Source: Hydractinia symbiolongicarpus (lineage: Eukaryota > Cnidaria > Hydrozoa > Anthoathecata > Hydractiniidae). From it: a DNA stretch of 64,000 nt. Made by a program: the position numbers and the translations under genes. Positions 25,830 through 63,744 of the stretch are shown here, piece after piece. The notes below the pieces were generated by a model. That model was not told the DNA's origin and did no database searches. It was given only the letters and a program-made list of their open reading frames with translations. Location of the stretch: the NCBI RefSeq assembly GCF_029227915.1, contig NC_079877.1:14135351-14199350 (forward strand), written 5' to 3'. How positions within the stretch are numbered: the stretch's first letter is position 1; each line of letters starts with the position of its first letter.

Positions 25830-26354
<525 letters not shown>

Positions 26355-26365
26355 TATATCAATTT

Positions 26366-26380
26366 GGTAGTATAATTCCC
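26366..26380 (-). repeat. 15-bp motif GGTAGTATAATTCCC at the inner edge of the left (AAT)n array
   Basis: The exact reverse complement lies at 50547-50561, at the inner edge of the right (AAT)n array. Direct copies of GGGAATTATACTACC also occur at about 26539 and 26921. The inverted pair brackets about 24.2 kb, including the FHA/recombinase/SET gene. Confidence 0.7.
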
Positions 26381-29300: not shown

Positions 29301-29740
29301 TTTGTGGTTTTTATGTTGTTGTGAATTGCTCAAAGATTGATGATTGCATATACACAATTCTCTGTCCTTAAGCAAGATCTATTCATTCTATTGTTCAAGA
29401 GTAATGAATCATAACATTCCTGACTATGGTACTTCTGAGAAAATTACAATTTTATCGCTGGAAAGTTAATTATATATACTTCCAAAAAAAACCCTACCCA
29501 ACCAATAAGTAATCAGATCACATTGTTTCAAGAAAACCGAATAGCAGGACTTTTAGTTTCAAACTTTTTTTACTGTTGCTTTTTACACATAAGTGTATAT
29601 ATATGTAGTAGGTTGTTGTAGAAAAGCACAAATACATTTACTTGTCCTTAACAAATTTCTTTATAAAATGCTGTAATATCATACAAATACGTATTTTTTT
29701 TACCAAGAAACCTATACGTTTGAGGTGTTGTCTGCATGTT
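26381..29740. other. Intronic stretch without a gene
   Basis: No coding frame is supported. It holds two direct copies of GGGAATTATACTACC (near 26539 and 26921) and a TGACGTCATGACATCATGA stretch near 28212. Confidence 0.45.
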
Positions 29741-29759
29741 TCTTATACTTTTTAGTTTT

Positions 29760-30017
29760 CCTCAAATTTGCTAAGCCTGACCCAAGAGCTCTGTCAATTA
29801 TCAGTTTTTTCAATATATTTTTTTCAATATTTCCATACCCTTTGCCTTAGCTTTATGCTATTAGGTATGGTCTCCCTTCAATAGCATTATATATTTTAAT
29901 TTTGTTACCCTGACTAATTATGATATTTATTTTCTTTTTCTTTATATTTATTTTCTTTTAATTTTAATTGTATATATATAACTGCTATTGATAAATAAAA
30001 TATCTATCTATCTATCA
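29760..30017 (+). mobile_element. Possible LINE 3' end with (ATCT)n tail
   Basis: The stretch ends ATTGATAAATAAA and then ATCTATCTATCTATC, a form common at the 3' ends of LINEs in invertebrates. No coding part is attached, so this is only a tail fragment. Confidence 0.35.
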
Positions 30018-30280
30018 GGTGTAACAGTTAAAAGTACCCATAATCTCAGCCAGATCTTGTATGAACGAAATAGTGAAATAGTGAAACTCACTTTGTTTTC
30101 TTTTAGGCCACATACTCGACACCTGCTAACACAATGTAACCGTTTAATTCGAATATTTGATGAAATAGTACCCATATTTTATGGTTTATATATCAGGTTT
30201 AATTTTATTTCTTGGTGTTAGGTATCTCTAATATCAAACAAAATTATTGTGTAAGTTACTGTCTGATTTACCAATTTATT

Positions 30281-31035
30281 TGGCCGCACCGTGCATTTTG
30301 TTTCCATGAATCTATTGAGATGCTTATTGTATGATTTTTTGGATGGCCGCACAGGTGCATTTTGTTTCTTGAATCTATTGAGATGCATCAAGACTGTATT
30401 TATCGATCTTGCTCAAAATGGACCATAAATTTTCAATTTGATGCATGTCTGTAGAATTCAGGTCTTATATTGTACTCGATTGTATGATTTTATTTGGATG
30501 GCCGCACCGTGCATTTTGTTTCCATGAATCTATTGAGACACATATTGTATGATTTTATTGGATGGCCGCACAGGTGCATTTTGTTTCTTGAATCTATTGA
30601 GATGCATCAAGACTGTATTTATCGATCTTGCTCAATATGGACCATAAATTTTCAATTTGATGCATGTCTGTAGAATTCAAGTCTTATATTGTACTAGAAT
30701 GTATGATTTTATTTGGATGGCCGCACCGTGCATTTTGTTTCCATGAATCTATTGAGATGCTTATTGTATGATTTTATTGGATGGCCGCACAGGTGCATTT
30801 TGTTTCTTGAATCTATTAAGATGCATCAAGACTGTATTTATCGATCTTGCTCAAAATGGACCATAAATTTTCAATTTGATGCATGTCTGTAGAATTCAGG
30901 TCTTATATTGTACTAGAATGTATGATTTTATTTGGACGGCCGCACCGTGCATTTTGTTTCCATGAATCTATTGAGACACATATTGTATGATTTTATTTGG
31001 ACGGCCGCACCGTGCATTTTGTTTCTCTTAGTCCA
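30281..31035. repeat. 219-bp tandem repeat, about 3.4 copies, with internal half-repeat
   Basis: GGCCGCACCGTGCATTTTG starts at 30282, 30500, 30719, 30939 and 31003, giving periods of 218, 219, 220 and then 64. Inside each unit a second GGCCGCACAGGTGCATTTTG copy occurs about 63 bp after the first, so the unit grew from a 63-bp repeat plus a longer spacer (TGCATCAAGACTGTATTTAT and what follows). Copies are highly alike, so the array is recent. Confidence 0.9.
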
Positions 31036-31059
31036 ACGAGATATATTAAGACTCCATTA

Positions 31060-31290
31060 CTTGATAAAAAATTTTTATAATAATAATACCCGTAATCTGA
31101 GCACGAGAAAAAAAGTTGTGCTACGCACATATGAGGTAGCACATGCGATATATTTTTATCGACTTTGTTGCAAGAATTTATAGGACGGAAAAATTCGTGG
31201 ATTTTTCCACGAAATACCGATGCAGGAAATTGTACGACAGGCAAAAATTTGAGTGCCGGCGGACGAGCTAGCTAACGGCTAGTCTCAATT
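31060..31290 (-). repeat. CTAGT-end family repeat copy
   Basis: Shares CATGCGATATATTTTTATCG and the preceding GAAAAA...TTACGGACAAACG-type stretch with 32440-32596. The right end reads GGCTAGTCTC, so on the minus strand it begins with GACTAGCCGTTAGC like the other family members. Confidence 0.5.
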
Positions 31291-32330
31291 AATTGCGCAC
31301 ATTTAATGGACTGTGTTGTGTATGGATAATTTTTTTTCACTGTCTACTTCGCGGGGCACTTTTACTCTACTATCCAAGTCGGCTCTTATAACACGACCTG
31401 TGTGTTTTGTACTAATAAGACAAAAACTTCAGCAAAATTTTTGTTAAAAATGTAATTGACACGCTTTTGTTATGGTAATAGGAGTTTGTTTGCCTCGTTT
31501 AATCTAAAAGCCTGCTTAAATATTGCTGCAGCCCACGTGAATTTATACTCAAGAAAGTATTTGTTGTTGTTTCAACCACGTTGCTAAACTTTTTAACAGT
31601 AAGAAAGTAAAGTAACTACTTATGTCTTATATGAAATTATACTCAGAACGCATCCTGGCGTCGATCCAAAGGCCTATAGCTGTTTCCACGAAATCACGAA
31701 TTGGGTGAATATATTTAAGAAACAAATTAGTTTTGTTTCAATCATGTCATTAGCCATCTTAAGAATAAATAAAATTGCCAAGTGAGCAATTTGAGAATTG
31801 AGATCGGGTTTTTTTCATTGGATATAAAGGGGTTCTGTGACTCTTAAATTTTCTTTTGTGTTTAACGTTATCTATTATTTTAAATCAATTATTACTATAA
31901 GTTGAGAAACATGACTCGTTGAATATAAATGTTTTCAGGTGGCCAGATTTCTCACCAATACGAATGCTATCACAGCCAGAATTAATTATGAATTAATTTA
32001 GAGCGAAGGGTAGTATAATAAGAGAAGTACTGTGGAATTTTAAAAATGATTCTAATGTTGACTTCAGGTTGTACACTAAACAAGGTTTACAATAAATCAA
32101 ACGGCAAAAAAGGCATTGATTGATGCAATTTTATATATTTTGATATTTTATGTATTTTCTGTTCCTTTGGGCAAAACGCTTGTCAACAATCCTCCATTAG
32201 ATACATTTCTGTTCCCGTCATCATGCAATCACATAAAACACCACAATTTTTCATTTTAAATTTCTATCCCTTTCTGAATTAGTAATTCTTGCTATTAGCA
32301 TTTTGGGGTGCATTTGTGGTAACTATGGCT
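31291..32330. other. Intronic stretch without a gene
   Basis: No coding frame, RNA gene or ordered repeat could be supported here. Confidence 0.45.
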
Positions 32331-32334
32331 AGTA

Positions 32335-32600
32335 ATATCCGTATTCTGTCTGTGGGTGAAAACCAGGTCGTGCTAACCACGCCCAAATAAGTGATCCATA
32401 AAAACACAGGCGGGAACTTACTTACTTACTTACTATACGGAAAAGATTTTTAGAATCCGTATTCTGTCTGCGCACGTGAGAAAAAGTCATGTTACGGACA
32501 AACGAAATAGCAAATGCGATATATTTTTATCGACTATACTACGTCGGGTTTTTCCCCGCGAACCTGTGGGATTTTTGGCACACCAAAGACTAGTATGGTC
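32335..32600 (-). repeat. CTAGT-end family repeat copies
   Basis: ATCCGTATTCTGTCTG occurs twice (near 32337 and 32454). Positions 32440-32596 match 31060-31290 (GATATATTTTTATCGACT) and end AAAGACTAGTATGG. Read on the minus strand this is another CTAGT-type end followed by the CACAGGTTCGCGGGGAAAAA variant of the CCCGTGG hairpin. Confidence 0.5.
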
Positions 32601-33049
32601 AAAATAATTATTTGCGAATGTGCACTTACACCATTTTTTTATCATTTTTATATTTGATTAAATGTTTTCACAGGTCTTATTCAATGACAATGACTGAACA
32701 GATAAGTGGTAATATTTTTAAAATAAAGTCCTCGGTGGTTTTTTGTAAGAAGAAAACCTTTCCTAAAAATTTAAATACCCTGTCTAAATTTTCTTATCTT
32801 TTGATATATCCTCCTAGATAATGCAAAACACTGGAACAGTAGTCACAGTAAGCACCTACTCACCCAGCACCCCTGATTGTAATGAAAGAAAATGCCAAAC
32901 CATATAGTTAATGTGTGCGCAAGTATCTGGAAAAAACATTCTATAAATTCTATTAGGTTATTCTTATGTCAATTGATTTCCGTCGCCGCTACGCTGGGCT
33001 GAATCTTTGAAATTGCCTGATGGAAGATAGAGATATACATATGTATATG

Positions 33050-33260
33050 GTGGGCTCGAACCACCAACGGGGCTCGATCCTGTAGTGAGAGAAAAGGCAA
33101 TTGCAAACTCGTCTCACTATCGGAACGATAGCTCAGTTGGCAGAGCAGTGGGGCGCTAACCCAATGTTCGCTGGTTCAAATTCCGCTCGGTCAGGTTTTC
33201 ACTTTCGCCGATAGAGATCACCTCCGCTTCTGAATATTGTATAATGTATATGTGCCCGGT
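33050..33260 (+). mobile_element. tRNA-derived SINE or tRNA pseudogene
   Basis: Positions 33124-33195 carry a good A box (GATAGCTCAGTTGGCAGAGC) and B box (GGTTCAAATTCC) with tRNA spacing. The acceptor stem does not pair well. A short downstream repeat (TTCTACTACTGTTCTATAAA, twice near 33290 and 33330) follows. Probably a SINE; a degraded tRNA gene is the alternative. Confidence 0.5.
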
Positions 33261-33609
33261 GCTGTGTTCTACTGCTGTTGTTCTACTACTGTTCTATAAA
33301 TTGTATGATATGTAATACTACTGTTCTACTACTGTTCTATAAATTGTATAATGTATAATACTGTACCCAGAATACACACACCTTTTAATTTCTGCCAATT
33401 TAATGACCAATCTAAAGACCAATTATGTAGCTAGCAAACCAGCTAGGTACACAAAATAGTGCTTTGATTAGAGTGCCTTCTTTTTCTTAAGGAACCATAA
33501 ACAAACAAACTTGATCTTGCTTTGCAATTTTTTTCCATCGTGGCTGGTAACCTAACTCCTTCTTTGGGAAAAACAGGAGGCTAAAAATAAGTTCCAAACG
33601 ACACTTTGT

Positions 33610-34220
33610 GTGTCCATTTATAGTTTAAAGTTGCGGAAATAGTGCCTGTAGGTAAATAAGTGGATGTGTTTGTCATCTTTTAGCAACACGCTTATTCCAA
33701 TTTAGTGCGGAAGGTCTATCTAGGCTAAATTGTGACGGAAAACGGTACTATAGCTTGCCCCTCTAACCTATGAGTAAAGTTACACTTGCCCCATGCGCCC
33801 CTCATTCCTATAAAAAAGAATAAACACCCCTGCATTCGCATAGATGGCTTCAGTGTTGAACGGTGTCTTTTTATGTCAAATGCACCAATCTCCAGTCCAA
33901 TAAGCGCATTTCTACTATGTATGGTTGTTGAAATAGTGCCTGCAGATAAATTAGTGCGTGCGGTTGTTATCTTTTAACAACACGTTTATTTAAATCAGGT
34001 CCAGAATGCATGTATAGGCTAAAATGTGACGAAAAACTGTACTATAACTTGCCCCTTTAACTTATAAGTCTAGTCACACGTGCCCCGTGCGTCCCGTCAT
34101 TCCCCACAAAGGATAACGATAGGACAAACGACCCTGTATTCTGATGAACCGTGTCAGTGCTAAACAGTGTTTTTATGTCAAATGTACCAATTTGTAGTCC
34201 GATACGCACCTTTGCCTCCC
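33610..34220. repeat. Direct repeat of about 300 bp, two copies
   Basis: Copy 1 (about 33625-33916) and copy 2 (about 33920-34218) share AATAGTGCCTG, CTTTTARCAACACG, TAGGCTAAA..TGTGACG, ACTATARCTTGCCCCT and TTTTATGTCAAATG in the same order. They are diverged at many positions. The pair ends about 670 bp before the first codon of the FHA/recombinase/SET gene and may include its upstream region. Confidence 0.7.
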
Positions 34221-34884
34221 AACCAACCCGTCCAGCAACTTATCGCGAGCGATTGTAATTATGGAAAAACAATAAAAAGTATAGCGTTTACATAAGTTAT
34301 GAGTATAGAGTTGTATTTCGCCTCACAAGTTTGTAGCTTAGAATTCGTGGAGACGCTAAATAGCTTAGTATTTAAGGATGCGCAACCTTGATTGCGTCCA
34401 ACGAACAAAAGGTTTTCAAATTTGAGCCTCTATATTGGCTAAAACGCCCGTTAAAAGATAAAAAATGTTTGTCCTATGTAATGTGTGTAATGCCTCTTAA
34501 GTCAAAAAAGGATGATATAAACTATTATAGGCGGTACATAAATATTGGCAGTCATTTCTTCTTTTTACTTATTAATTTTTTCTTTTTATTTATTAATTTC
34601 TTCTAATAATCATTTTTATTTTTTATCTAGTCAGTTGCCCTTTCTTGAGCGTCAAGCAATAGTTAAAAGAGAATTCAAATCTTTATTCCCTCCCCCTGTT
34701 TCCAGCTGTGATCATTCGGAAAATTGTTAGTTAATTTCTGTCGATTTAGTTCATTTAATTAGTCAAAACAAGACAGTCCCGACAATTATCTTACTTAAAA
34801 TTCAATTATTCTCATGAAAACGTGCTTTTTTCTGTATATGTCGTGACCTGTATTTGTAATTACAATTGCAGTTTAAAATAGACA

Positions 34885-36309
34885 ATGGATCAATCTATTG
34901 CAAGCTTACTCTCCGTTAGAAAAGATGGTTCCCCAGGAAGAACATATTACCTTCATAGTTCGGACAAAGACTTGCTCATTGGAACCTCGTAAGTCAAAAA
35001 AGAATTTATTATTATTTAAACAACAGTCCTCATTTAACATACATGAGTAAAAAAACCGCAACCGCATTTTAATTGTAATTGTAATAAGCGTAATCTATCT
35101 ACAACCCTGGACACGATATTTGTGGCCGTTTTTTGCTATTTCTCGAAATGGCACAACAGCATGCTTTGGTCAGTCCTTTGCATAAGCTGCAACAGTTTAC
35201 TTTGCCGGGGTGTAGTAAACAACCTTAGAAATTGCTTGTGATTACGATCTTCGAAGTTACGCCCGCGGATTTTGACTGGAGCCCAAAATAAAACAAGCAT
35301 AATTCTCAAAACTAGGAACAATCCGAGTCTATATTTTGACGAATGACGCCATTGTTCATAAGCACAATTACAGAGCTGCATCAGCAACAAAAACAACTAA
35401 TTTTCACATAAACACATAAATTCCAGAGAACTTTAAGAAAACATTTCCATAAATAAGAACAAAATAACGCTAAATTCTGAAGTTGTGCTCTTATACTTCT
35501 GGTTAAGAACAAAAGCCAAGATTTCACTGATTCTTATAAAAAAGCGTCATCTCCGGGGTTGGAAATTTATAATAACTTTTGTAACCTCAATTTTTTATAC
35601 AGAACTTTCTAAACATTTTTATAAGAATCAGAAATTTGCCTTTAGCTGTTTTTTCACATGGTTAAGGTGGGTTTATACTTATTTTGTTTTCCTATCTTAA
35701 GCATTTTTTATTCATTTTACAGTACATAACAAATCCTCGCAGTCCGAAAGGTCAATTGATCCCGCAAAAAATAAATTTACCACGGAAGATTTGCCCATGT
35801 TTTTTTTTGTTTTTAGGAAGAAAGAAAAATTCAGTAAAATTGTGCCTTCAAATTGTTTTTATTTCTCTCTTTTTCTCCAAACAATCTCAGCCTCGTGTAT
35901 GGTCTTACTAAAACCCTTTTAATTTCACAATGACTAAAAGCTTTTGTGTTTTTATGTTTTGTTTTGAATAATTGTTGGTACGAGTAAAAAAATTATGATT
36001 ACCTTTCTTCCATAGTCCTAAAGCGAACATCCAGATAAGCGAGGCAACATATGAAAATATTGACACATACCATTGTAATTTGTCGTTAGAAGATAACGCG
36101 GTAATTTTTTCTCATTTTTATTTTCTAATTTTTATCCGTCATTTTACTATCCAATTGATGTAATTCTTCCATTTAGTATATTTTACGTATTACCACGGAA
36201 ATTTTTCCAACGTTTATCAATGGAGATGAAGTCGCGTGTGCAACACCATTGAAACATGGCGATGTGATTTCAGTAGGAGATAAGAAGTTTAAATTCTTTT
36301 ATAGCAGAG
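34885..36309 (+). CDS. FHA domain exons (exons 1-3 of the composite gene)
   Basis: The three exons join to a domain very like the N-terminal FHA domain of Ki-67 in length and order. The strand before the first turn ends LLIGTSPKANIQI, followed by YHCNL, FPTFINGDEV and PLKHGDVISVGDKKFKFF. FHA domains bind phosphothreonine. The Arg of the usual GR pair is replaced (GT), while the His of the second motif and the NG turn are kept, so phosphopeptide binding may be weakened. The FHA domain starts at the first residue of the protein, as it does in Ki-67. Confidence 0.8.
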
Positions 36310-39300
36310 GTATACATTGCCGCTAGTATATTCAATTTAAAATGCGTGGGTTAACAGGGAAGTATCAGTTGGAGAACTGAATTTTAAGAACCAACTGATA
36401 ATTTCTTTTTTAACTCTAAATGAGCGATTTTTTACCATTTTCTTTTTCAAGCAGATGTATGCTTTGATACTAAGCCATCTATCATGCATGCTTTTACTAT
36501 TTATTACTCCCTTATCTATGAAGTATATCTACACAGTTCAAACATTAATATTTAAATTTAACTAAAATTAAGGATAAAAAACCTTTGGAACTAGATCCAT
36601 TCGTCAGGATTGTTATAAAAAACCGTTTTCCACTGGGAGTTACTTTCAGCAAAAAAACGAAAATACGTACTTTAATCCCATACACCCCATGTGTACTACA
36701 GTATGCATCTTTGCACGACTTATGCTTTAAAATTTAATATGTGACTGTGTTCTTTAGATAAAAAATTTGATATACCTCTCGATGAATTGAAATATCTAAT
36801 GGATACGTTAGAACCGGAGATACACATGATCATGTCGGGAAAGGTAAAAGTTGGAGGAACATTTAGAGTAGCATGCTATGTTGTGCATTTGTGTAATTTG
36901 TGTCATTATTTGAAATTTTTAGACTGCGACTGATAGATATACACTGTACATAAATGGTGGCGATGATAGACGTAAGCGTTATATATAAAATTTCATGATG
37001 AAAAGTTCATTCTCCAAGATCTTGTTGATAAACATTTCTTTAATGTTAGACATTTTCGTGTTTCTGTGTAACTGTTATCTGTTCAGTTTTGCAAACCTCT
37101 ATAAACCACACATCTATCGTTATACTGTTTTATGTCATGCTTTACTACATCATATAGTTTTTTATATGTTGATATAAGTCATATGAAGGCTAACTGAATC
37201 TTCTAGACTCTCTGGATACCAACAATGGTTTGAACTACTTCTCAGATGGGATGGTAGAATATGTTACTGGCAAATTAATCACTTGGTTTTCTAGCCCCAA
37301 GGTAGTTGTTTTGTATTCCTGGTTGCGCAGTTGTTTTTGTCTCGATCGCATTTGACAATCATACTAGTCTGCATTATCTATTTGAGACCGAAAGGTAGTT
37401 AAAAAATTCATGTGATGTGTAAAAAAAATACTTGTTTTAGTTCTTTGACGGTGTTATGAAAGTCTTGTTGCCAGACACCCTGGTTTTAGTGTTAAGCAAG
37501 ATTCAAAACATCAGTTTTAAAAAGGTAATCTGTGTTACGGTATTTATAAAGCTTACAATTAATAGTTACCTAGATAATTAATAATTTTGTTCGATGATTT
37601 TGTAGGCGTTGACCCTAACTTTAGATGAAGAAAGCTTCGCAAGTGCTTTATCTGTAGAAGAAAATGAAGATAATTCATCCCTTGGTAAGCAAACATAAGG
37701 CTATAAACATAATTATAAACAGGATTTTTTTACCAAATTTAAATTTCACATTATATTTACGTTCTGTTGTTAGTGTCACTTACTACAACTGAAAAACAGT
37801 CCATGTCAGAAACAACAAATGCAACACCGGTGGTGAGTACTTTTGTTGATTATGTGATTTTTTATAAGCATGCTCTTAAAAAAAATTGTTCAATAATGGT
37901 ATTTATTACTACAGCACTGCCCAAGCTCCCCAGACGTACTAATTGGAAAAGACGGGATTGACTTTGATTCCCCGATCGTTGTTAGTAAGGTACAATTCAT
38001 TTTAATATGCATCTTATCCCTTATACGCAAACTAAAATGCAAGAAAAAGTTTGTTGACGCAGGATTTTGAACACCGCTAACCAATGTTCTTTAGTTCCTT
38101 TTTTTTCATGTACCTTGAAATTGCGAGAAGAATTTTGTCATTTGGCACAGAAAGTAAATTTTTTATATTTTCAGAGTAAGTCAATAAATGAATATACCAC
38201 ACGAAAAGAAAGACAATGATCCCTTTACTTACATTTTTGGAACAATATCAATACTTTCTATTTTGTTGCAAATTTTGGGTGCACACTCCTGTCCTTTTTA
38301 AGTGTCATTGTGGTTATGCGAACTAATTTTATCATAGGGAATTGAGCCAAAGACAAATCGCATAAAATCAAAAGACGAAGAGAGAAAAAGGAAAAAAAGA
38401 AAAGCTGAGGAGGAGATTGAGGATCTAAGAAAACGGTTGCGTAGGGCTGAAAGGGCGGCAGAGAAGGAGTTTATGGACGTAAGCAGCGAAAAAGAAATTT
38501 GTCACGAGGAAGCAGAAGGTGAGGAAAGGGTGAAGAATGACCTTAAGTATAAGGAAAAGAAACTTAAGGAAAAAAGAAAAAGGGAAAGGTTGAGAAAAAA
38601 AGTTAGAGCAAATTTAGAATTGTACTTGCCTTCACACGATACCGTCAAGCCAAGTCATGTTAAGAAGAAGAGAAAGTTTGAAATGAAATGTATTGAGTGC
38701 GGTGAGGTCATGAAAAGCGATAGTTTGGCTGGTCATTTAGTTACTATACATAAGTATAGCAGTGACACAGCTCGCATGAAAGAAAGTGAACTCAGAGTAA
38801 TGTTTTTATGGGCCTCAAAAGAAAAGCATGGGAGTGAGAAGCCTTTGCCATGTGTGATCTGCAATAAATGGCATATGCTGCTAAGAAACCATTTAAGGTA
38901 TAAGCACAAGGATTTGCAGAATGAAGACATCAATAAAATTGTGGAAAGTGCAAGGAAAGAGTACTGGTGCACAGCTAAACTTGCTGAAACCGCGAAGAAA
39001 GGAGGAGTAAAACATTTAGAACCTGAAAATGATGAGATCAGCAAAAGAAGCAAAGACCGATTTCAGGCCAATTTATATAAAGGACCAGCTGCCTCTTATG
39101 CTCCGAAAAATTCTTTTATTTTGACAGAATTCGATAGGCAATTATGGAATTTAAAGGAAAAAGACTTTTTTAATTTTTATTATAAAGACCAAGCATTTCT
39201 GATGAAGGCCTTCGAAGAAGATTTAGTGGCAAATGGTAGTTCAGAACGGCAAGCAAAACAACATTGCCAATATGTTGAATACATATGGGATATAGTTGAC

Positions 39301-42300
39301 CCCAGTAGAACAATGTTCCCTCTTCATGCATTTTCTAACCCAATTTGTATTGAGGACAACTACCATCGATTGTCTCTGGAACTTGTTGGAAAAGGAGGGG
39401 TTGAGGCAAATACATTGCGCACTAGATTTTCTTCCTTGCGGCATTTTCTGAAGTTTCTGAGACGTCGTCATATCTATGCAGGCCTTACAAGAGAGCATTT
39501 TCGTCTTCTGGAGGAATCAATCGAAGACTGGAATATTAGATTACGCCTTCTTATAAAGCAAAGGAAGGTCAATCTGAGACGTTTGAAGACACGGCACTTG
39601 TTAACGGTTAGCACATGATAAAGTATGGACGCTCACCATTTACGCAAGATATTGTTGCGAAGCTCAACAATTATAGTACACGTGGCAAAAGCAAGTATAC
39701 CATTGGCTTTTGTTTGAAAGTACGTGACTACGTAATGACCAATATTTGTATTATGAATGGTTTAAGAGCCTCGAATCTCATAGAATTGCTAGTGAGTGAT
39801 GTGAAGGAGGCCAGTCGTCACGATGATTATCCTGGACACTGGGTAATCATCAACTCTAATTACAAGACGTCGACGATATATGGGGAGAAGGTTATTGCTA
39901 TACCAGATGCGATCTTTAATCATCTGAAAATATACATGGACCATTTACGTCCTTTGTTTGAAAATGCATCATCAAAATATCTATTTTTGCCGTCATCAAA
40001 TGAAGATAAAATGTCTCACGGTTTTGTTGGCAGTGCTTTAACAAGCAGCTTTAAAGATGCCGAAGTTTTTAGCGAGAAAGAATATCAACGAGTTTGTCCA
40101 ACCAGAATTCGATGTGCATGCGCAACGTTTGCATGTAACCTTGAAGGCATGGACATTGGATTCTTCGCTAAGAACTTCATGAAAAACAAAGAGGAAACAA
40201 CACAGAGGCATTACAATCTGCATTCAAATGTAAAGCATGCCTTGAGTCTTGCAATGATGGTCGGCGATGGGTTTCAAGTAGGAGGTGAACGTATCACCAT
40301 TAAACAAAGTGAAAGAGAAGATTTGACAAATCTACTCTTAAAAAAATCCCGACCTTCAGAACTGCCTTCAAAAGAAAAAGTGCTAGAGTGGATAAAGTTG
40401 AGAAACTCTGACTTGACAGCAATGGAAATGAACGCCATTGACCAGATATTGGAAGAGCTGTCCGACCCATCCACAATATCTGCAGAAAAAACAGCGAGTT
40501 CGTTCTATGGCGATGTAAGTGTTTGATCATTATAGGTTTAAGTAAAAAAAATTGGAAAATTTTGGATTATAATTTAAACTTATACTTTAGCAAACGGCTT
40601 TTTTTATTTTTGTTTTAGAATTGCATTGTTACTTGAAAAACTTACTGCTTTAATTATAGTGTCTTGAAAATGAAAATGATGGCAATGTTGAGGATGGCGG
40701 TGGAATTGGTGATGATGAAGTTAGAAAGGTAAGTGTGATCAACTTTCTTGGTTTGGTTGAGAATGGCAATCTTAAAGAAGTAAACAAACTGTAGCCTTCA
40801 AGATCTATTTACGCATACATCTTTGTTTATTAGATCGAAAATTTCTGTCCACCTACACCTAGTATAAAAAGCAGTAAATCTATATGTAGAGAAGTAAGTA
40901 TTATAGCTTTAATAATTCTTTAGTATTTATGTAAATTACTAGTGCTAAAACTAGTTTTGAAAGAGACAACTATTGCTCACTAGTTACGTTATGTTTAATA
41001 ATTTTTTACCGAAAAAAAAGGGAAGAAAAACAAGAAAATCTTTTTGTTTAAATTGCACTAAGACTACGTTTACATGTAGGCGGGATGAAATTTCATCCCG
41101 GGATGACTTTCGTCCCGGGATGAAACCTTTTTTGTTTACATCTCTATTTCATCCCGGGGCGAGTTTTGAATAATTTCATCCCGGGATGAAATTATTCAAA
41201 ACCATTGCGCATAAAGTTCAGAAATAAAGGTAGTTTCATCCCGGGATGAAATATTTTTTCTGTTTACATGGAGATTTGAGAATAGTTTCATCCCGGGTTG
41301 AAATTTCATCTCGGTCATTTCGACCGGGATGAACTCGCCCCGGTATGAGATTTCATCCCGCCTAAAACTTGTAAACAGTATAAAGACTTTGGCCAGAGAC
41401 AGGGATGACCTCATCCCGGGACGAGTTTTATCCCGGGATGAGATTTCCCATGTAAACACCCCCTAATTTAAGTCATTTCTAGTTCTTCCACGAAGATTTA
41501 TTTTCATGCAAACAAATTTTTGCAAAAATTAACTAACTTATGTAGCATTAATCCTTATTTACCTGTCCAAACAGCTGCATTATTTACTCAATATTTTACG
41601 TATACAAATTTTCTTTACTATTTCTGGAAAATATTGACCAAGACGTGTGAAAATTATGTCAAATTATTATCTAAATTTCTGAGTCAGTAGAAATTTCTAG
41701 TTAAAATAGTATAAAAACAAGAAAAATCGGCTTCTACAAAATTTCAAAAGTAATATTTTATATAGCGGACATTGAAAATGTGCTGAATTAGCCGAGTATA
41801 CCCACTGTATAAAGTATTTATTGTGATTTAGCAAGTTAAAGTTACTGAAAGTACAATGAAAACAAGGTCGACGATAAGTATGGAGAATACAGCTTCGGTA
41901 TGTGCTTTGCTTTGTAGAAATGCAATTTTTTTTAAATATAAACATTGGAATTATTATCTGGTTGTAATAAAGGGCGTTTGATGATATATGTCCTAATAAC
42001 AATTCATACCGACGTAAAATTTCCATTGTACATTTGATATGAAACATGCTTGCCCCCTTATTGTCCTGTCTTGCTAGCTTGCGAAAAAATGTTAAACTTA
42101 ATTCAATTTTCCCAGAACAAAAAGTAACGTGATCACCTCTAATCATTGTCTTGTTTCCTCCCTGAATAGAATAAGCAGGATCATGCCTGTTCCAGGCCTT
42201 TATTCAGTCTATTTCGTTTTGGTATTACATTAAGTAAAAGAAAGGATTTAGCAAATTTTATTCCTTATCTGCTGTTTACAGAATACTTTTGCTTCTAAAA

Positions 42301-45300
42301 ACCTTCATTTTAAGGGGTCGTGTATTTCAGGATTTTAGAAAGAAAGTTTTGTTTATGACATAAGAACTAATTTTAGTGAGTCTAATCATTAGGTTCTACA
42401 ACATTAAATTATTCCTTGAATATGGTGGTAGAAAAAAAGTTAGTTAAAATGCATCTTAGAGTTAATAGCTTATGTAAATTTAGTCCGGATTTATAAGTAT
42501 TGGAGAAGTTGATATGGAAGATGAACAGAAGCAAGCCAAAAGATTTGTAGAACTCGGCATTGACCAAGACGGATTTGAAAAAGTTTTTATTAACGACGAC
42601 ATTGGTATGATAGTTTAGCTTGTGTCAAAGATTAGTTTAATACAGTAGAATATTATTACACGTTACGATTATTATTTTTAGCTTTTTTTTTAACTTCATA
42701 CCAAGCCACTATGTGATAATTAATTTTTTTTAGGTTTTGGAATATTTTCAACCAAAAGTTTTAAGAAAGGGGAGTTCCTTCTTCAGTACAGAGGGCAGTT
42801 ACTCTCCAAAGACGAAGCTGAGAAGAACGAAAAGGGATACGAAGAGGATGGTTTCGGCTGTTTTCTCTACTTTTTTGATCATAAAAAGAACGAGAGAAAA
42901 GAAACACTATGGTAATCAATGATAGATTTAATTCGTTAAAGAAAAAACATTATATGCTGTACTATACAAAATATGCTACGCTTTACTATACATTATGTGC
43001 TTTACTTAATGCTTCTAATCAGATTTCTGTGAGACAAATTGAATTAAATGTTTTAAATTTTTACGGAAAACAAAACAAAAAAACAAACAGTATAAAAATG
43101 GCTAAGGTATAAAAACCTTTTTTTGTCCAAAACAAACAAACTGCCTCGGCATCTCAGGGATTTGAAACCAAATCGTTGCATTTGTCTCTTTGAAATATGT
43201 TATGTCTCTTTAATTTAGTGTTGACGCAACCAATACGGAATCTATTTGCAAATATGTCAATGATTCTGCGTTTCCGAACTGTGTTATGAATAAAGTCATC
43301 GTCAGAAGTTCGCCTTTTTTGTGTCTCTTTGCCGTCAAAGACATACCATCGGGTATAGAATTGCGGTATGACTATAAGGATAGAAAAAATCTCTGGTGGA
43401 GAAAAAAGGTAACTTTAATTTGATTTATAACATTGGTTAAAACTTCTTTCAAATGAAGGATATTTTTAATAAAGGATAAATACCGGTAATAGTAACGAAA
43501 CCTCCCGATATAAAGCTTAATAAGAACGATGTTGATCAAGCATCGAGCCTTGAAGAACACGCTTTGTGAATTAACTGTGGTTCTTCTTTAAAAAAAACAC
43601 TTAACTTTCGGCATAAATAATGTACATATTACAATATCTTCCTTAAAGCTTTGCGTAGCTTAATTATAAATGCCCAAAATAAAAACTTATATAACTAAAA
43701 TTCAAAAATAATTTCAACTGGCCAGCTGTTGCACTAAATATGCTTTAAGATACTTATCTTTTAAAATCTAACCTGCTTACTATGTAGATACTTGCAAAAC
43801 AAAACATATAAGAGATGTAGATAATTAATGCTCATTTGATTATGAAAGTCTTTATCTAATTTTCAGTCGTGTCTGCTACAATTTTTTTAAAGAATTTAAT
43901 TTTTTTTCAGGAGGAATGTAAATTTCCATTGAAAAAGACAGAGTTAGCTAATGCTCCATCCACGGTTCGTATTACTGATTTCAACAATTACTTAAATACT
44001 AGTCGGTGGCCCGTGGAAAAATCCACGGGTTCGCCCGTCCTTTTTATACCGCATTGCGTGCGTCTCGCTACTTGCGGTACCATTTTGCGTGACAGACAGA
44101 CAGACGTATACGGGTATTATAATATAGACTAGCCGTTAACCCGTGGAAACATCCACGGGGTCGCCCGTCCTTTATATATCGCATTTCGTGTTTCCGCCAC
44201 GGGACTCGCCTACCGCGGACAGACAGACTAAATACGGCTGTTATTAAAGAGATGTTAAATATCTTAATTCACCTACCTTCGTGTTGATGTACTATTTTGG
44301 AGCCCTCTATTTTACGCGAACTCTAGGCCAAGCCAAAATTTTAACGATAACAGAAATCTCAGGCCATTTTTCCATTGCAACCCAGACTTAGTTCAATGCA
44401 ATCGTGAACTGGTAAACAGCAATAAGCGCTCCTTAAAACTTTTCTATTTTGTACATTTTAAATTTCAGTGCATGCATGTGTGTTTTATAATATTTAATTG
44501 TTACTTGCTTAATTTTAAGGATGAGTCAAATGATGCGTACAATCCAGAGTCCCAAAATGTGAGCGAAGACCTTGACTCTGAGAACGACGAGGAGCTTGTT
44601 AAGGTGTTTTTCCCCGCACTTTTTTCTCTTCATTTTTTTCTTTTGTTTACAAAATTAAAATAGTTCGGTGGTAATTTGTAAACTTGGAGGCTGTGCATAT
44701 GGAGGCGAGTTATGGATCGCGCATATGCAGGTTCGGTTGACTTGGCTAACTCGGCATCTTGCTATTGTTCAGAAAACCTTATAAAAAACATGTGTTCAAA
44801 AGAGAAGCGAGTCAGCCCGTCTTTCCAAGAAATATTTTGAAAAATTTATAACCACCCTAAAATAATAATTAAAAACTAACTTGAAAAAAGTTTTTGTAGA
44901 AATTTATAGATTAAAACTGTCTAACTTTATTATAATATCCATAGCCGTTACGGAAACAAAAGAAGAGAGAACGCCTGGATGACGAAGATATGGCCAAACC
45001 TGACGATTTTGTTCCGTCCAGAAGATTTGGGAGAAAAACATACTTGGCCCTAACAAATATTTTTCGTGATATCGTCGTTCGTGCTGATTACGCAAACGAG
45101 TATAATATGAAGTCGTTCGCTATTTCAGAGCTACATGACAAATTGGCAGTATCTGACCATCCGTGGCTTGACAACATAAAGAAAATGAACGTCAATGATT
45201 TGAAGTACTGTGTGCATACGCTGCGCAATAAATTTAGAAGTGCAAACGCTAAAACGTTGAGAAAATGGGGAAAATGGTGCGAGGATGTTGAATCATTTTA

Positions 45301-45322
45301 TAGGCAACAACAAACCGTTTAA
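34885..45322 (+). CDS. Composite gene: FHA, coiled coil, C2H2 fingers, tyrosine recombinase and SET (20 exons)
   Basis: Exons read by eye: 34885-34988, 36016-36100, 36177-36309, 36758-36843, 36923-36971, 37207-37301, 37441-37524, 37606-37684, 37774-37832, 37915-37989, 38338-40514, 40660-40728, 40834-40893, 41832-41897, 42484-42604, 42734-42911, 43219-43408, 43911 to about 44000, 44520-44603, 44945-45322. Every join has GT-AG ends and consistent phase, except that exon 18 runs into a repeat and its donor is unclear. About 1,420 residues are implied. Exon 11 has one -1 frame change (39612-39618). Domains: FHA (1-107), basic coiled coil (284-380), two zinc fingers (401, 455), recombinase (about 640-935), SET (about 1110-1235), unknown C-terminal domain. 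An AG acceptor sits 14 nt before the ATG, so a 5' untranslated exon is likely. The gene lies in the large intron of gene B, same strand. It may be a mobile element with introns or a host gene that captured a recombinase. Confidence 0.8.
38338..40514 (+). CDS. Crypton-like tyrosine recombinase exon with coiled coil and two C2H2 fingers
   Basis: One 2,177-nt exon with phase-0 introns on both sides, far longer than its neighbours. It starts with a Lys/Glu-rich coiled coil. Two fingers follow: CIEC...H-x4-H (38689) and CVIC...H-x4-H (38851). An N-terminal core-binding block TRFSSLRHFLKFLRRR (39421) leads to the catalytic domain. There NGLRASNLIELLV carries the first Arg (39765), YKTS the Lys, PTRIRCACATFA the second Arg, and ETTQRHY the Tyr nucleophile (40212). 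The His of the usual H-x2-R box is Thr, and the residue usually His/Trp before the Tyr is Lys or Asn. The first frame stops at 39616-39618; the catalytic part continues from 39612 in the -1 frame. Such recombinases cut and rejoin DNA through a covalent phosphotyrosine. Related families: Crypton transposons and their domesticated host genes. Confidence 0.85.
40894..41831. other. Intron of the composite gene
   Basis: Intron between the exons ending 40893 (donor GTAAGT) and starting 41832. It contains the palindrome-rich repeat at 41062-41466. The minus-strand open frame at 41196-41459 is only that repeat and is not a gene. Confidence 0.6.
41062..41466. mobile_element. MITE-like element built of CATCCCGGGATG palindromes
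   Basis: At least five good copies and several diverged copies of TTTCATCCCGGGATGAAA occur within 400 bp. The ends are loosely inverted: GTTTACATGTAGGCGGGATG at the left and CATGTAAACACCCCC at the right. CTAA follows the right end and also precedes the left end, a possible target-site duplication of TAA/CTAA as in Harbinger-type MITEs. It lies in an intron and would fold into strong hairpins. Confidence 0.7.
42484..43408 (+). CDS. SET methyltransferase exons (exons 15-17 of the composite gene)
   Basis: Three exons join in phase to a SET domain of the KMT5A (SETD8) type. Blocks are GFGIFSTKSFKKGEFLLQYR, then LYFFDHKKNE, CVDATNTESICKYVND, PNCVMNK, LFAVKDIPSGIELRYDYKDR. SET enzymes transfer a methyl group from S-adenosylmethionine to lysine; KMT5A acts on histone H4 Lys20. 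The catalytic Tyr of the final ELRYDY block is kept. The central NHS motif reads NDS, so the His that contacts the cofactor is replaced by Asp, which may lower activity. There is no post-SET cysteine cluster, as in KMT5A. The Cys of CVDAT is split by the intron between 42911 and 43219, which confirms that join. Confidence 0.85.
44001..44134 (+). mobile_element. Short CTAGT-end element with (ACAG)n core
   Basis: Begins ACTAGTCGGTGGCCCGTGG, has a CCCGTGGAAAAATCCACGGG hairpin, then TTTTTATACCGCATTGCGTG, three ACAG units and ACGTATACGGGTATTATAA, ending ATATAGACTAG. It is a short version of the element at 59292-60174. The short inverted ends, hairpin and tetranucleotide core recall Pearl/CvA or DINE-type non-autonomous Helentrons. 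It interrupts the splice donor region of exon 18 of the composite gene. Confidence 0.7.
44131..44256 (+). mobile_element. Second CTAGT-end element, abutting the first
   Basis: Starts CTAGCCGTTAACCCGTGG with an ATCCACGGGG hairpin, then CGCCCGTCCTTTATATATCG and a different body (GGACTCGCCTACCGCGG), two ACAG units, and ends near TACGGCTGTTATTAAAGAGA. This body matches the variant at 63410-63590. Head-to-tail contact of two members suggests insertion at the end of a resident copy. Confidence 0.6.
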
Positions 45323-46180
45323 AGGTGTATACCAATGATCTTTCGTGAAGACAATTTTTTTACGGTACCTTCCTGTTATTTTAATATTTATTTCTAGTTG
45401 TTACTTTAACGTGAGTAATTTTAAAGATAGGTTCTAGTTCTTCCTTTATTTTGCAAAGGATTTGGTGCGCAGAACGATTTGCGAAAGATAGATCTTGCAA
45501 AGTTTGATGAAATTTGAAACTTGAGTGACTCGATAAAATAGCTAATGTTTGCAAAAAAAATTGACATCATGGAAATGCGTTAGAATCCATATACACAAAA
45601 ACCCCGGAATAATCATCATAATCAGTGCTTCTTGTTTATAGATGGGGCGGCTTACGAAAATTTGAGGAATTTACATGGCACATATTCAAAAGCGTTGGGT
45701 GCTAATTCGAATCACTAGAGCCGGCCTCCTCTTACAACCGCAATCACGGCGATCTATTGTTTTTATTTAGCAAAAAGCGAAAGCCAGCGCGCATATTTTG
45801 TACGTCTGGAAGTGAAAGTTGTTTCAACTCTTGCGTCGAGACGCTGTCGTGACACCAATCAAAATAAACAAAAATTCCCTAAATCTTAATTTAACATTGA
45901 TCGCTGTGATCGCGCGTGTAAGTGGGGGCCGGCCTTTACTTTATTTGACGGCTGATGTTATTTTAGTGGTGTTGAATTTTCCATTTAACAGTTAATGGAT
46001 AAATCAAAGTATTCTAGAAAAATGCCTTTTCTTTTTCTTCGTTGCGAGGATTATCAGAACACGTTTTAATGTCGACTTATGTCGTTGATGGCTTAATGTT
46101 TTTTCTGCAGCGGTAAAATTACAAGCGCTCACCAAAAAAGAGAATTACTTTGCAAAAAACGTGCATGTGTGTGTGTGGCC
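45323..46180. other. Downstream of the composite gene, no gene seen
   Basis: No open frame of note and no clear AATAAA close to the stop at 45322. GGGGCCGGCC-type G+C-rich stretches near 45725 and 45928 stand out from the A+T-rich background but form no recognisable element. Confidence 0.45.
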
Positions 46181-46185
46181 ATTTA

Positions 46186-46246
46186 CAGTAAGATTTGGCC
46201 ATTTACAGTGAGATTTGGCCATTTGTAGTGAGATTTGGCCATTTGC
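46186..46246. repeat. Three-copy 21-bp minisatellite
   Basis: GTGAGATTTGGCCATTT recurs three times with 20-21 bp spacing, preceded by one more GGCCATTTACAG. It sits at the 5' edge of the reverse transcriptase element. Confidence 0.7.
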
Positions 46247-48906
46247 ATGTTCAGAGTACCAACAGGAAAGGCTGGGGAAATGTTTATTGATAATCTTAGC
46301 ATTTGGTTGCAACAATTCAACGCCAATACAAAACTTAATGCAATAGCGATTAAAGTGTTCATGATACTGCCGACGTTGTTCCAAAGCAAAAGACCATCTA
46401 GCTTGTTTAACCAGGAGATTGGAGCAATGGCAAAGTGGGAACTTTGAGGTTATAATGCGGGAAGTAAGGCAAATACAGCGAAAATTTGGTACATAAAAAA
46501 ACCAGAGGACAGCGAATGACATTTCGAGAATTTTTTCGAAATTGGTCATGGAAGGAAAAATATCGGCAGCATTGAAATTTTTAGATAAAGAGTCTTCCTC
46601 TGGAGTTCTAAAATATACGCCTGAAATTTTGCAAGACCTCAAAACTAAGCTTCCGGATGCGGCAGAAGTTCAGGAAGACAGTCTCCTTCATGGTCCATTG
46701 CAAAACATACCGCCCTACTTCTTCGATGCAATTGACGAAACGCACATCTTTAATGTTGCACTACGAACGAAGGGATCTGCAGGTTCGAGTGGAATGGATT
46801 CTGATTCATATCGCCAAATTTTATGTTCCAGGTCCTTCGGAAGTCAGTGCAAAACACTTCATGAAGAAATTGCAAATTTCACCAGAAACGAAGCCGCACG
46901 CTGTTCCAACCCGGACTTGTTGGATAGTTATGTGTCATGTCGTTTAATAGCTCTTGATAAGAACCCTAGAGTGGGGGAAGTTTTACGGAGGATTGTTGGA
47001 AAGACAATTAATCACCATTGTAGACAGGAGATAAAGGAATCCGCGGGTCCTCTTCAAACATGTGCAGGGCATGGCGCAGAAGCAGAGGCAGCCATACATG
47101 TCATGAGACTTATCTTCCAGTAGGATGAAAGTGACGGTGTACTACTCATCGATGCTCAAAATGCGTTCAATTGTTTAAACGGAGCAGTTGCTTTACATAA
47201 CATTCGAATAACTTGCCCAATTTTATCGATGTATTTGATTAACACATACTGTCAACCAGCGACCTTATTTGTTTCGGGCGGAGATATTATTTTCTCAAAA
47301 GAGGGGACGAATCAAGGAGACCCCCTTGCAATGCCGTGGTACTCCTTGAGTACAGTGACAATTATCGATGCATTGAGACAGTGTGAACCATCCATTAAGC
47401 AAGTTTGGCTTGCAGATGACGCCAGTGCAGCTGGTAATTTACGTTCACTGCAGATGTGGTACAAACAACTCGCGAAAATTACGGTTACTATGTTAATCAA
47501 TCAAAATGCTGGCTCATTGTCAAATCTGACGACTTAGCAACAGAAGCAGCTACAATATTCGGTGAATCAGTGAATATTACTACTCGTGGAAAAAGGCACC
47601 TTGGTTCCTGTATCGGATCAGAGGACTATCGACGAGGAGATTGTGGAGATTTGGTCGAAAGGTGGACTAAAGACCTTTAAACATTGTGTGAAATCGCCGA
47701 CACCCAACCACAGGCTGCTTATGCAGCTTTTACGAAAGGATGCAAATCCAAATTTTCTTATTTCATCCGGACAATCTAAGGATTTGAGCAATTCACTGAA
47801 CTACTGACTCGTTGCTTAGTGACAAATTCCTACCCGCCCTGTGCGAAGTATTTAACAATCATAGAGACTTGCTCTCCTTGAATCCATCAGAAGGAGGACT
47901 CGGAATTAGCACCATTTCAAAAATAGCAACCGAACAACACCAAGCCTCCGTTAAAATTACATCATGTCAATGCAATTTTAAGTCAGAAAAATGTAATATC
48001 TGAAACCGATGGTAACCGAAAATCGGTAAGCGAATTAAAAGCAGAAGTAAATTCAAAACGTACGATGTCGAAAAAGATGAGGTTAATGCCATTCACGAAA
48101 AACTACCCGATAACTTAAAATCACTGGTAGATCAGGCATACGACAAAGGAGCTAGTGGATGGTTGAATGCTTTACCCATTAAGGAGCAGAACCTAGACCT
48201 TAACAAAGAGGAATTTCGAGACGCCCTTCGCTTAAGGTACAATGCGCCACTCAAAAACTTACCAACATATTGTGCGCGTGGCGAAAGATTTAATGAATGT
48301 CACGCAATGAATTGCAAGACGGGTGGATTTGTAGTAAACAGATACGACAACATTAGAGATTTTTTGGCAGTGTGTTTAAATAAAGTCTGCAATGACGTAG
48401 AAACAGAACCGTGTTTAATGCCTATCACATATTAGAAATTTTCCTTGAAAACTGCCAACACCAGCGACGATGATAGGTTGGATGTTAAAGAGAAAGGTTT
48501 TTGGAGGAAGGGAGAAACTGCATTTTTCGATGTTAGAGTCACGCACGTTCATTCAGAATCCTTCAGAAACCTTGATACGCAAAAACAATTTAGAAGACAC
48601 GAAGAAGCCAATAAATGCGAGTACGTTGAACGAGTACTGGACGTTGAGCATGCCTGTTTCACGCCACTGGTCTTTGGGACAAATGGTGGTGTTGGTGACG
48701 AATGCGGACGTTTTCTAGCTAGCTTTGCAGCAAAAATCTCTGCTAAAACTGATGACAATTACGCAGCCATAGTGACATGGTTACGTACACGACTCTTTAT
48801 GGAACTAACACGTGCCTCTTTGCTTTGTTTAAAAGGGTCAAGGACTCCATTCAGATCGTACAATACTGAGAAGACCCGTTTGGACAATGTTGTTAGTGGC
48901 TTAGGC
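46240..48906 (+). mobile_element. Broken reverse transcriptase element
   Basis: Coding blocks in order, all on the plus strand but in several frames. The N-terminal block is PTGKAGEMFIDNLSIWLQQF. Next come GSAGSSGMDSDSYRQIL, ALDKNPRVGEVLRRIVGK, LLIDAQNAFNCLN, NQGDPLAMPWY and the active site WLADDASAAG. Then LNPSEGGLGIST, a Cys/His block (CARGERFNECHAMNCKTGGF), and AFFDVRVTHVHSES with VFGTNGGVGDECGRF near the C-terminus. The active-site Asp pair is intact, but there is a TAG at 47121 and at least four frame changes (near 46430, 47480, 47650 and 47810). The arrangement is that of a multi-copy retroelement of marine invertebrates whose clade I cannot name; no recombinase or terminal repeats were found. 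Confidence 0.8.
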
Positions 48907-48909
48907 TAG

Positions 48910-50425
48910 CTTTTGTACTTAAGGTGGCTAAAGATTTATTTACCACAACCTGGTTTGTGGTTTCAAGTTTCTATACGCCACGCGATTTGTTCCCTTTCTG
49001 ATAATCAAGAGTCGTGTGCTTTCACTGTTTTCTCGACTGAGTCCTTCCTGTGCTTCCCTCAGAACACCAAGCTTTTATTTTTATCTAGTGTTTAATCCGT
49101 GTATAATTGTGTGTGTGTGGAAAAGGATGGGGAAAGGGGGGGAGGGGGTAGAAGGGGGTGTAAATGAATAAACATATATTGAGAATACACCTCCACGCTT
49201 TTTTATTGTCATGATCAACTTGGGATCGGACCAGAATCTTGTGTTTGCTTGCTCAATTAGCCTGGTAAATTGACATTGTCGTTGTATGTAACATGAACTT
49301 TCACACAAGGAAAATCTTGGAAGCAATTGCTGTTGTTTAAATTTCTGTAATTTGTCCATTTATTTTTATTTTTTTATTTACTCACTTCGGGATCGGTGTT
49401 GGACAAGTTGCTTCGTGTTTTGAAGAATTTGACCTTATGTTGCTTACAGCTTGTTACTTACATAAAAATGCGTGTATTTCCAGAACAATAAATATAATAC
49501 CTCATCGGGGAATAAAAAAGTAGGGGGTAAAGTTAATCGGTGAAAATTTCACTCACCATTACATAGAATTAATTAGTTTCCCCAGAATAAAATTGGGTCT
49601 CAATAAGGAGAAATATATCTACTTCCTTGCTATATTTTCCCGTCTGTAATCATTAAAATTCATTAGTTAGTATGAAAACTAAGTCGATTAAAACAAAATT
49701 TAAACATTTCAATACAAAATACGCCGTTAGTAAATTACTTGTAAAATTTTTAGTCGAGGATTAAGGAAATCGGGGAAAAATTAGTCACCAACCCTTAAAT
49801 TTAGTCACTTTTCCCCGGTTTCTTTTCCTTGATAAGGTATATTTCCAAATGAAATATTTTAAATTTTATCCACTATTTGGTGGTCTAACGAAATTTTCTC
49901 AGCCAAAAGATTTTCTAAATATGCATAAATACACATTTTCCGAATTATTTCTTTCATATTTCGCAGTTTTTTCCAACTCTTTTAAGGAAAATGAATGTGA
50001 TTTTAGAAAACCTTACCTGAAGTTTAAAAAGGACAGAAATTTTCAAAATCATGCAGCAAATAAATAACCTGTTACGACGATTTATTTAATTTTATTACAC
50101 TTGACCACTGCTTCAAACCAGACGTATTATGAGAAGTCGAAAATTTAGCAGACTTTGACCGTGACAATTACACCACCGAAACAGTAATTCCCAAAGTCCA
50201 AATAGGCTTATTTAGCCATGCTTAGTCCAAAAACAATAACATAAAATCATAAATCTAAAGTTTCAAACATATAATTTTAAAAACGTGTAATAATTCCAGA
50301 ATAAATTAAGATTGGAATAATTTAAAATCAGAATAAATTAGTGAATCCATACACACAATAAAAAAATAGCGAAAATATGCATTTAAATATCTTAATCACG
50401 GAGAAATGACCTAAAATAGACAAAA
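48910..50425. other. Intronic stretch without a gene
   Basis: Contains a G-rich tract near 49120-49160 and A+T-rich DNA. No open frame is supported. Confidence 0.45.
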
Positions 50426-50429
50426 GAGT

Positions 50430-50725
<296 letters not shown>

Positions 50726-50734
50726 TAATTTTAG

Positions 50735-59240: not shown

Positions 59241-59291
59241 GAGACTATAAAGAATTCATTAAAAACAAGTATGGCGAGAATATTGTTAAAC

Positions 59292-60174
<883 letters not shown>

Positions 60175-63714: not shown

Positions 63715-63744
63715 TTCTTAACCCGTGGAACAATCCACGGGAAT

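Follow-up and report, generated by a model that had tools for sequence, protein, structure and literature searches.

The stretch of DNA analysed here, 64,000 nucleotides of the genome of the hydrozoan Hydractinia symbiolongicarpus (contig NC_079877.1, positions 14,135,351 to 14,199,350; hereafter the window), contains a long spliced gene in which a tyrosine recombinase (YR) is joined to SET and FHA-like domains. It supplies the recombinase of a family of large DNA elements that moved recently, referred to below as family 1. A known H. symbiolongicarpus protein agrees with the gene at 99%.

The window gene and its repeated unit

The gene and the parts of its predicted protein lie at the following window positions.

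34885..45322, + strand: gene of 20 exons in the order FHA, N2, coiled coil, two C2H2 fingers, SAM-like/YR, SET and CT; frameshift in the window copy, 1,393 codons open in two other copies
34885..36309, + strand: FHA domain, exons 1-3 (PF00498, 4.4e-8; best Protein Data Bank (PDB) match Ki-67, 2.8e-4)
36758..37524, + strand: N2 domain, exons 4-7, common to predicted proteins P0002 and P0005 (the latter from Hydra)
38338..40514, + strand: exon 11, coiled coil, two C2H2 fingers, SAM-like domain and YR; frameshift near 39600 in the window copy
42529..43408, + strand: KMT5A-like SET, exons 15-17 (PF00856, 3.3e-17; best PDB match KMT5A, 1.2e-21)
44945..45322, + strand: CT block, exon 20, homologous to the C-termini of relatives

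A first-pass annotation made from the sequence alone had described a gene of twenty exons on one strand, and this description holds, as all 20 exons of the window copy could be placed exactly with AG/GT at every border. In the predicted protein the FHA and N2 domains are followed by a linker (exons 8-10), the block encoded by exon 11, an acidic linker (exons 12-14), the SET domain, a further linker (exons 18-19) and CT. The Ki-67-like FHA, the tyrosine recombinase, the KMT5A-like SET and the conserved-looking C-terminal block named in that annotation were all recovered by profile searches, while its coiled coil and two fingers (~38689-38752 and ~38848-38910) are kept on a reading by eye.

That a single gene unites FHA, fingers, recombinase and SET is supported by two other copies of the gene, both on C14, in which the 20-exon model is uninterrupted with all splice dinucleotides intact, but the frame is broken in the window copy, where a one-nucleotide shift divides the recombinase exon into open reading frames 38338-39618 and 39612-40526. 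A micro-intron of 17 or 44 nucleotides at this point was considered and rejected, since two copies are open without one. The two open copies differ from each other at 8 codons (4 silent, 4 not), which is too few to show selection.

The span 34885-45322 given by the first-pass annotation is correct for the gene, but the unit that repeats in the genome is larger, at 24.2 kb (26359..50565, + strand in the window). It occurs three times at unrelated sites, once in the window (on C3) and twice on C14. Aligned pieces of the near-identical C14 copies are 97.8-99.8% identical to the window, and the outer flanks, as judged from the sequence around both C14 copies, are unrelated. Both C14 copies carry ~2.5 kb of extra sequence between window positions 32673 and 32677, and one of them, C14a, lacks ~0.7 kb of intron 1 relative to the window copy. 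The left 442 bases of the element find a full match at the three family 1 places and a short remnant on C7. Copy number and copy boundaries, which the first-pass annotation had raised, thus come out as three copies whose edges lie inside (TAA)n on both sides.

With the recombinase part as query the genome gave 54 matches at E up to 0.001; three are ~100% identical (family 1), and the remainder include family 2, with eight matches of 54% identity, and family 3, with four of 45%.

Element ends and TAA arrays

The ends of the window copy and its flanks comprise the following features.

26058..26358, no strand: (AAT)n microsatellite flanking the insertion on the left
26365..26380, + strand: left terminal inverted repeat TGGTAGTATAATTCCC, matching the right end at 16/16 positions, with 0/2000 shuffles as good
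50494..50562, no strand: 3.5 units of a 20-bp subterminal repeat with variants of the inverted-repeat motif; unit number varies between copies
50547..50562, - strand: right terminal inverted repeat, outermost copy, pairing with the left repeat
50566..50729, no strand: (TAA)n microsatellite flanking the insertion on the right

Inverted repeats were also recovered in family 2 (alignment score 18) and family 4 (score 21), again with 0/2000 shuffles as good in each; those of family 3 are weak, 41/2000 shuffles being as good. The repeats sit just inside the TAA arrays; by eye their form is alike across families, with a version particular to each. At the right end several direct copies of the motif stand ~20 bp apart. 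This layout is that expected of putative recombinase binding sites.

The association with TAA extends beyond family 1. Family 2 (eight copies, 13.0 kb) has ends that are known by their own sequence, and identity among the four copies read is 98.5-99.7% over the longer pieces. TAA follows 8/8 right ends and 7/8 left ends, the eighth left end having fallen outside the stretch read. Four of these eight copies served as a forward test, in which end positions were predicted before the sequence was read, and TAA was then found at the right end in 4/4 and at the left in 3/4. In family 3 (23.6 kb), TAA stands at the right ends set by homology in 3/3 copies read, of the 4 matched with the recombinase part; its left end, sought in one copy only, was located via the TAA arrays, as were both ends of family 4, and these ends are therefore not independent evidence. 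In one family 3 copy (C4b) homology to the C2 copy stops short of the C2 end, and that copy may have been cut or interrupted. Family 4 is represented by one copy of 10.0 kb, which ends in TAA and whose ends are supported by its inverted repeats; the right end of family 5 was absent from the 6 kb read.

In total, at least one end was read in 15 copies, and in every case read the TAA lies on the recombinase strand. In families 1 and 2, the ends of which are defined without reference to TAA, copies have TAA at either end and outer flanks that are unrelated. All 19 runs of at least eight TAA or TTA units in 304 kb examined lie by position at element ends; this sample is enriched in elements and serves as a guide rather than as a genome-wide density, and two of the runs are one base-broken array. 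In about half of 12 left flanks (e.g. window 25930-26058) the (AAT)n is preceded, by eye, by related short stretches of host DNA (CCTGTA..AATATTC), so that the target arrays may come from tails of a dispersed repeat.

These boundaries bear on the reading of the gene as a domesticated Crypton-derived host gene spread by segmental duplication. Such an origin would suit a long spliced gene with host-like domains, and family 1 has only three copies; the duplicates, however, start and stop in TAA arrays amid unrelated flanks, those of family 2 do likewise, and none of 23 loci found with the Crypton-type domain DUF3504 coincides with a window-type recombinase locus. We regard this origin as very improbable, and a host-gene reading was abandoned once three copies with precise ends had been found. 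Rather than a single-copy host gene, the window gene is a recombinase gene belonging to a mobile element.

The same annotation had called the recombinase Crypton-like, a label that the analysis does not support. Animal Cryptons are described, in the portion of the source available, as having DUF3504 and as lacking terminal repeats and a C-terminal domain (PMC3212892). DUF3504 gave no match to the window YR at E up to 1 and none to six relatives at 0.1; the 23 loci that it does find in the Hydractinia genome serve as a control and are all of another type. Like Crypton DNA transposons as that portion presents them, the window element has a YR as sole mobility enzyme and no intact reverse transcriptase (PMC3212892). 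It differs from the animal Cryptons so described in its inverted repeats, CT block and TAA targeting. Membership among Cryptons was rejected on the absence of DUF3504 and the structure of the ends.

Little else in the elements is coding. In four families the YR gene accounts for all reading frames of at least 180 aa but one, a 208-aa frame of family 1 within a reverse-transcriptase-like relic; a Pfam search with seven other frames yielded nothing above cut-off. The relic, at window 46497-48909 in a stretch common to the three copies, consists of frames with motifs recognised by eye (IALDKNP, LIDAQNAFN, GTNQGDP, LADD). Its presence within family 1 is what a DIRS-type retrotransposon, combining a YR with reverse transcriptase (RT), would lead one to expect. 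The frames are, however, interrupted by stops and gave no Pfam match above cut-off, and two pieces of the relic have no counterpart in eight copies of families 2-4, so that a DIRS-type identity is hardly credible. DIRS and Ngaro retrotransposons carry RT, whereas the window element has only an interrupted relic and none was found in families 2-4. The frames look like a nested retroelement relic. A retrotransposon identity was dropped, as they are broken and seen in family 1 only. The left part of the element also contains a 219-bp tandem repeat array of 3.4 copies (window 30281-31026).

The recombinase scaffold and its SET and FHA domains

The window YR matches Phage_integrase (PF00589) at 1.2e-6, with 28.9 bits against a Pfam cut-off of 27.1; the score is 31.3 in P0002, and falls under the cut-off in P0003, P0004, P0005 and P0009. 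R594, K627, R709 and Y743 (numbered on P0001, the public gene model of a C14 copy) are invariant in the aligned sequences (5/5 and 7/7), their catalytic roles being assigned by eye. In the alignment of the active site T replaces H of HxxR, and K replaces H/W. A PDB search with the YR alignment returned no recombinase, and one with the single window YR gave XerD at an E no better than 0.14; NCBIfam gave weak recombinase likeness under its cut-offs. AlphaFold models are weak (pLDDT 55 for YR, 58 for CT).

The combination of coiled coil, fingers, SAM-like domain and recombinase is shared with P0002 (Hydractinia family 2) and P0005 (Hydra vulgaris), and likewise with P0003, P0004, P0006, P0009 and family 4. 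A relatives search with a five-sequence alignment, in which the 7,989 candidates with most shared words were scored, recovered P0001 and one new protein only. The N2 domain, which has sub-threshold likeness to PWP3A-B_C, can be aligned across family 1, P0002 and P0005. A profile built from three other CTs matches the family 1 CT at 1.2e-14, against 0.11 for the best among 500 shuffles, and pairwise comparison with relatives' CTs gives 3e-7 and 3e-8. CT was found in families 1, 2, 3 and 5 and in Hydra P0005, and was looked for but undetected in family 4. In P0002 and P0005 it is the C-terminus of the YR protein. Judged by these comparisons, chromatin domains appear to have been added onto a scaffold of fingers, SAM-like domain and YR, which in most families seen also includes CT. 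Because the scaffold is one predicted protein in relatives, FHA would have been added before N2, and SET inserted between recombinase and CT. Hydra P0005 has, by eye, a Cys/His-rich, PHD-like start where FHA or SET would be, which gave no Pfam match.

The SET domain was sought across the genome, where 286 candidates were obtained and 150 of them scored, giving 150 listed rows and at least 154 matches to the window SET at E up to 0.01. At least 150 KMT5A-like SET stretches are thus present in the genome, many in near-identical sets. A recombinase match was counted as paired when a listed SET lay within 15 kb on the same strand, and the control was 1000 shifted sets. The rows used from the 54 recombinase matches were the 20 longest window-type rows and 24 looser ones, with 10 short fragments omitted. 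A SET accompanies 17/20 window-type rows (shifted sets mean 0.1, maximum 3) and 25/33 recombinases of a second, P0007-like type (mean 2.6, maximum 6; one short row omitted, and the control inflated by very short contigs). Among the loose rows the figure is 9/24 (mean 0.1, maximum 4), of which 8 stand, as the SET near C11:27234065 belongs to a neighbouring locus. By the same criterion no SET was found near the DUF3504 loci (0/23), nor near three window-type recombinases, namely those of family 4, C14:18783368 and C5:17463418. The link to SET is not peculiar to the window gene, since many other recombinase loci, belonging to three kinds, also have a SET beside them.

The place of SET varies. In family 2 and in 25/25 second-type pairs it precedes the recombinase, in family 1 it separates recombinase from CT, and in families 3 and 5 it follows CT. 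Its upstream occurrence in family 2 and all second-type pairs makes this the likely older position. In 8/24 loose rows, too, SET lies upstream on the same strand. That SET goes with three kinds of YR but not with Crypton-type YRs, and changed place within the window type, would suggest that its presence, rather than its position, is under selection. Where KMT5A has the AdoMet motif NHS, NDS stands in 5/5 element SETs covering the site (six SETs aligned), and Y-x-Y is kept; the SETs end in W-R in 5/6 and in W-Y in P0010, the KMT5A stretch compared stopping earlier. The element SET thus shares Y-x-Y with KMT5A (SET8), and differs from it in this substitution and in its fusion to a recombinase.

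The FHA domain is confined to the three family 1 copies, which account for 12/12 genome matches of the FHA probe. Aligned with Ki-67, it has T in place of the GR arginine and D in place of the serine of SxxH, and retains H and NG. We take the arginine and serine to be the usual phosphothreonine contacts of FHA domains. Phosphothreonine reading by this domain is accordingly doubtful from its residues, which counts against a role as phospho-reader. The first-pass annotation had envisaged a recombinase tied to a phospho-reader and a methyl-writer; one open gene with SET and an FHA-like domain supports the physical tie, but not the phospho-reading.

Whether these domains would form one full-length protein has to be weighed against two transcripts or proteins of one element, an FHA-N2-YR product and a SET-CT product. 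The weakest joins in the gene are that of exon 14 to 15 and the exon 18 donor; the exon 15 acceptor at 42529 lacks a pyrimidine tract, and an in-frame ATG stands at 42514. P0001, moreover, begins in exon 6 and ends by read-through into the intron after exon 12, so that it contains neither FHA nor SET. In family 3 the CT frame closes before SET, which may be a separate gene there. All of this argues against a single fusion. On the other hand, CT ends the YR protein itself in P0002 and P0005, in family 1 a single frame, open in two copies, runs from YR through SET to CT, and each of the predicted proteins P0007, P0010 and (with only the second half of SET) P0002 contains both SET and recombinase. 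The continuity of the scaffold in relatives is our main argument for one gene, as predicted, and we consider the two-product arrangement possible though rather less probable.

Proposed mechanism and relation to known elements

We consider it highly probable that the window element is a large hydrozoan YR DNA transposon that homes to (TAA)n microsatellites, a conclusion covering both the element and its target rule. In the mechanism proposed, YR protomers would bind the inverted TGGTAGTATAATTCCC-type sites, one at the left end and several at the right, and the element would be excised as a circle closed by a short TAA tract. This tract would then recombine with a genomic (TAA)n array, leaving TAA on both sides and one orientation. 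We infer the circular route and the exchange within TAA from the YR active site, the end repeats, the TAA on both sides and the fixed orientation. A methyltransferase-like SET domain, with putative enzymatic activity, appears to have been joined onto the scaffold in nearly all families, and an FHA domain, with putative binding function, in family 1. From its identity and recurrence, the most probable role of SET, at roughly equal chances for and against, would be to modify local chromatin at the donor or target and so aid expression or integration.

We are evenly divided on whether these elements constitute an undescribed superfamily of animal YR transposons, in which SET would be part of the transposition machinery and the microsatellite the attachment site; the carried chromatin writer (with FHA in one family) would then prepare or mark that site. 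The probability of such a superfamily is raised by the finding that, in one genome, SET accompanies three kinds of YR and not Crypton-type YRs. In the literature searched, of which Repbase reports and subscription papers formed no part, we came across neither a YR element bearing SET or FHA nor TAA-homing YR elements in cnidarians. This is consistent with the remark in the first-pass annotation that no system with the full domain combination was known to it. A TAA-homing, SET-bearing element may already be listed in Repbase or in subscription papers.

Among the nearest described systems are the recombinases of endogenous nimaviruses of crustaceans. According to the part of the source available, the telomere-repeat YRs of these viruses combine C2H2, SAM-like and YR domains and insert in (TAACC)n (PMC10871703). 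They share with the window element the C2H2-SAM-YR order, insertion in a simple repeat and repeat sequence on both sides, a likeness drawn from that description. In the same part no SET or FHA is mentioned (PMC10871703). An endogenous large DNA virus or its remnant with a nimavirus-like YR integrase would account for the domain order and the microsatellite homing described there (PMC10871703). Nimaviral YRs sit in large virus genomes, whereas the families described here measure only 10-24 kb and no viral gene was seen: the frames of at least 180 aa are those of the YR gene, except for the RT relic, and the seven other frames lack Pfam hits. A scan of IMG/VR contigs with two peptide patterns confirmed no relative. 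A viral origin thus seems most unlikely.

Starship giant transposons of fungi, in the portion of the source available, are also large and classified by one YR (PMC12134995). They differ in being fungal and in their large cargo, whereas here the YR gene is nearly the sole long coding part.

Fusions of chromatin domains with transposon enzymes have precedents. Chromatin-reader transposons are already known, for example those with chromodomain integrases. SETMAR, a domesticated primate mariner fusion, joins SET to a transposon enzyme; the Hydractinia SET, in contrast, rides inside mobile elements and moves with them. If the reading as a TAA-homing transposon with a carried SET is correct, near-identical elements in a laboratory model animal would make it possible to examine whether the chromatin at a target site is written by the mobile element itself. 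The restriction to (TAA)n points to a safe-haven logic, as insertions in microsatellites are probably mild. Near-identical copies, two open gene copies and defined end sites together provide a system for testing excision, circles and the need for SET.

Several further repeats were observed in the window. In the intron before exon 14, CATCCCGGGATGAAA-type palindromes are clustered at 41076-41466 in a manner resembling miniature inverted-repeat transposable elements. Intron 18 contains a repeat with a CCGTGGAAAAATCCACGGG-type palindrome (43997-44255), the unit number of which varies among element copies; this repeat is also found outside the element, at 59287-59402 and 63385-63741, and within family 3 elements. 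Also outside the element is a (GACA)n microsatellite of ~190 perfect units at 59388-60146.

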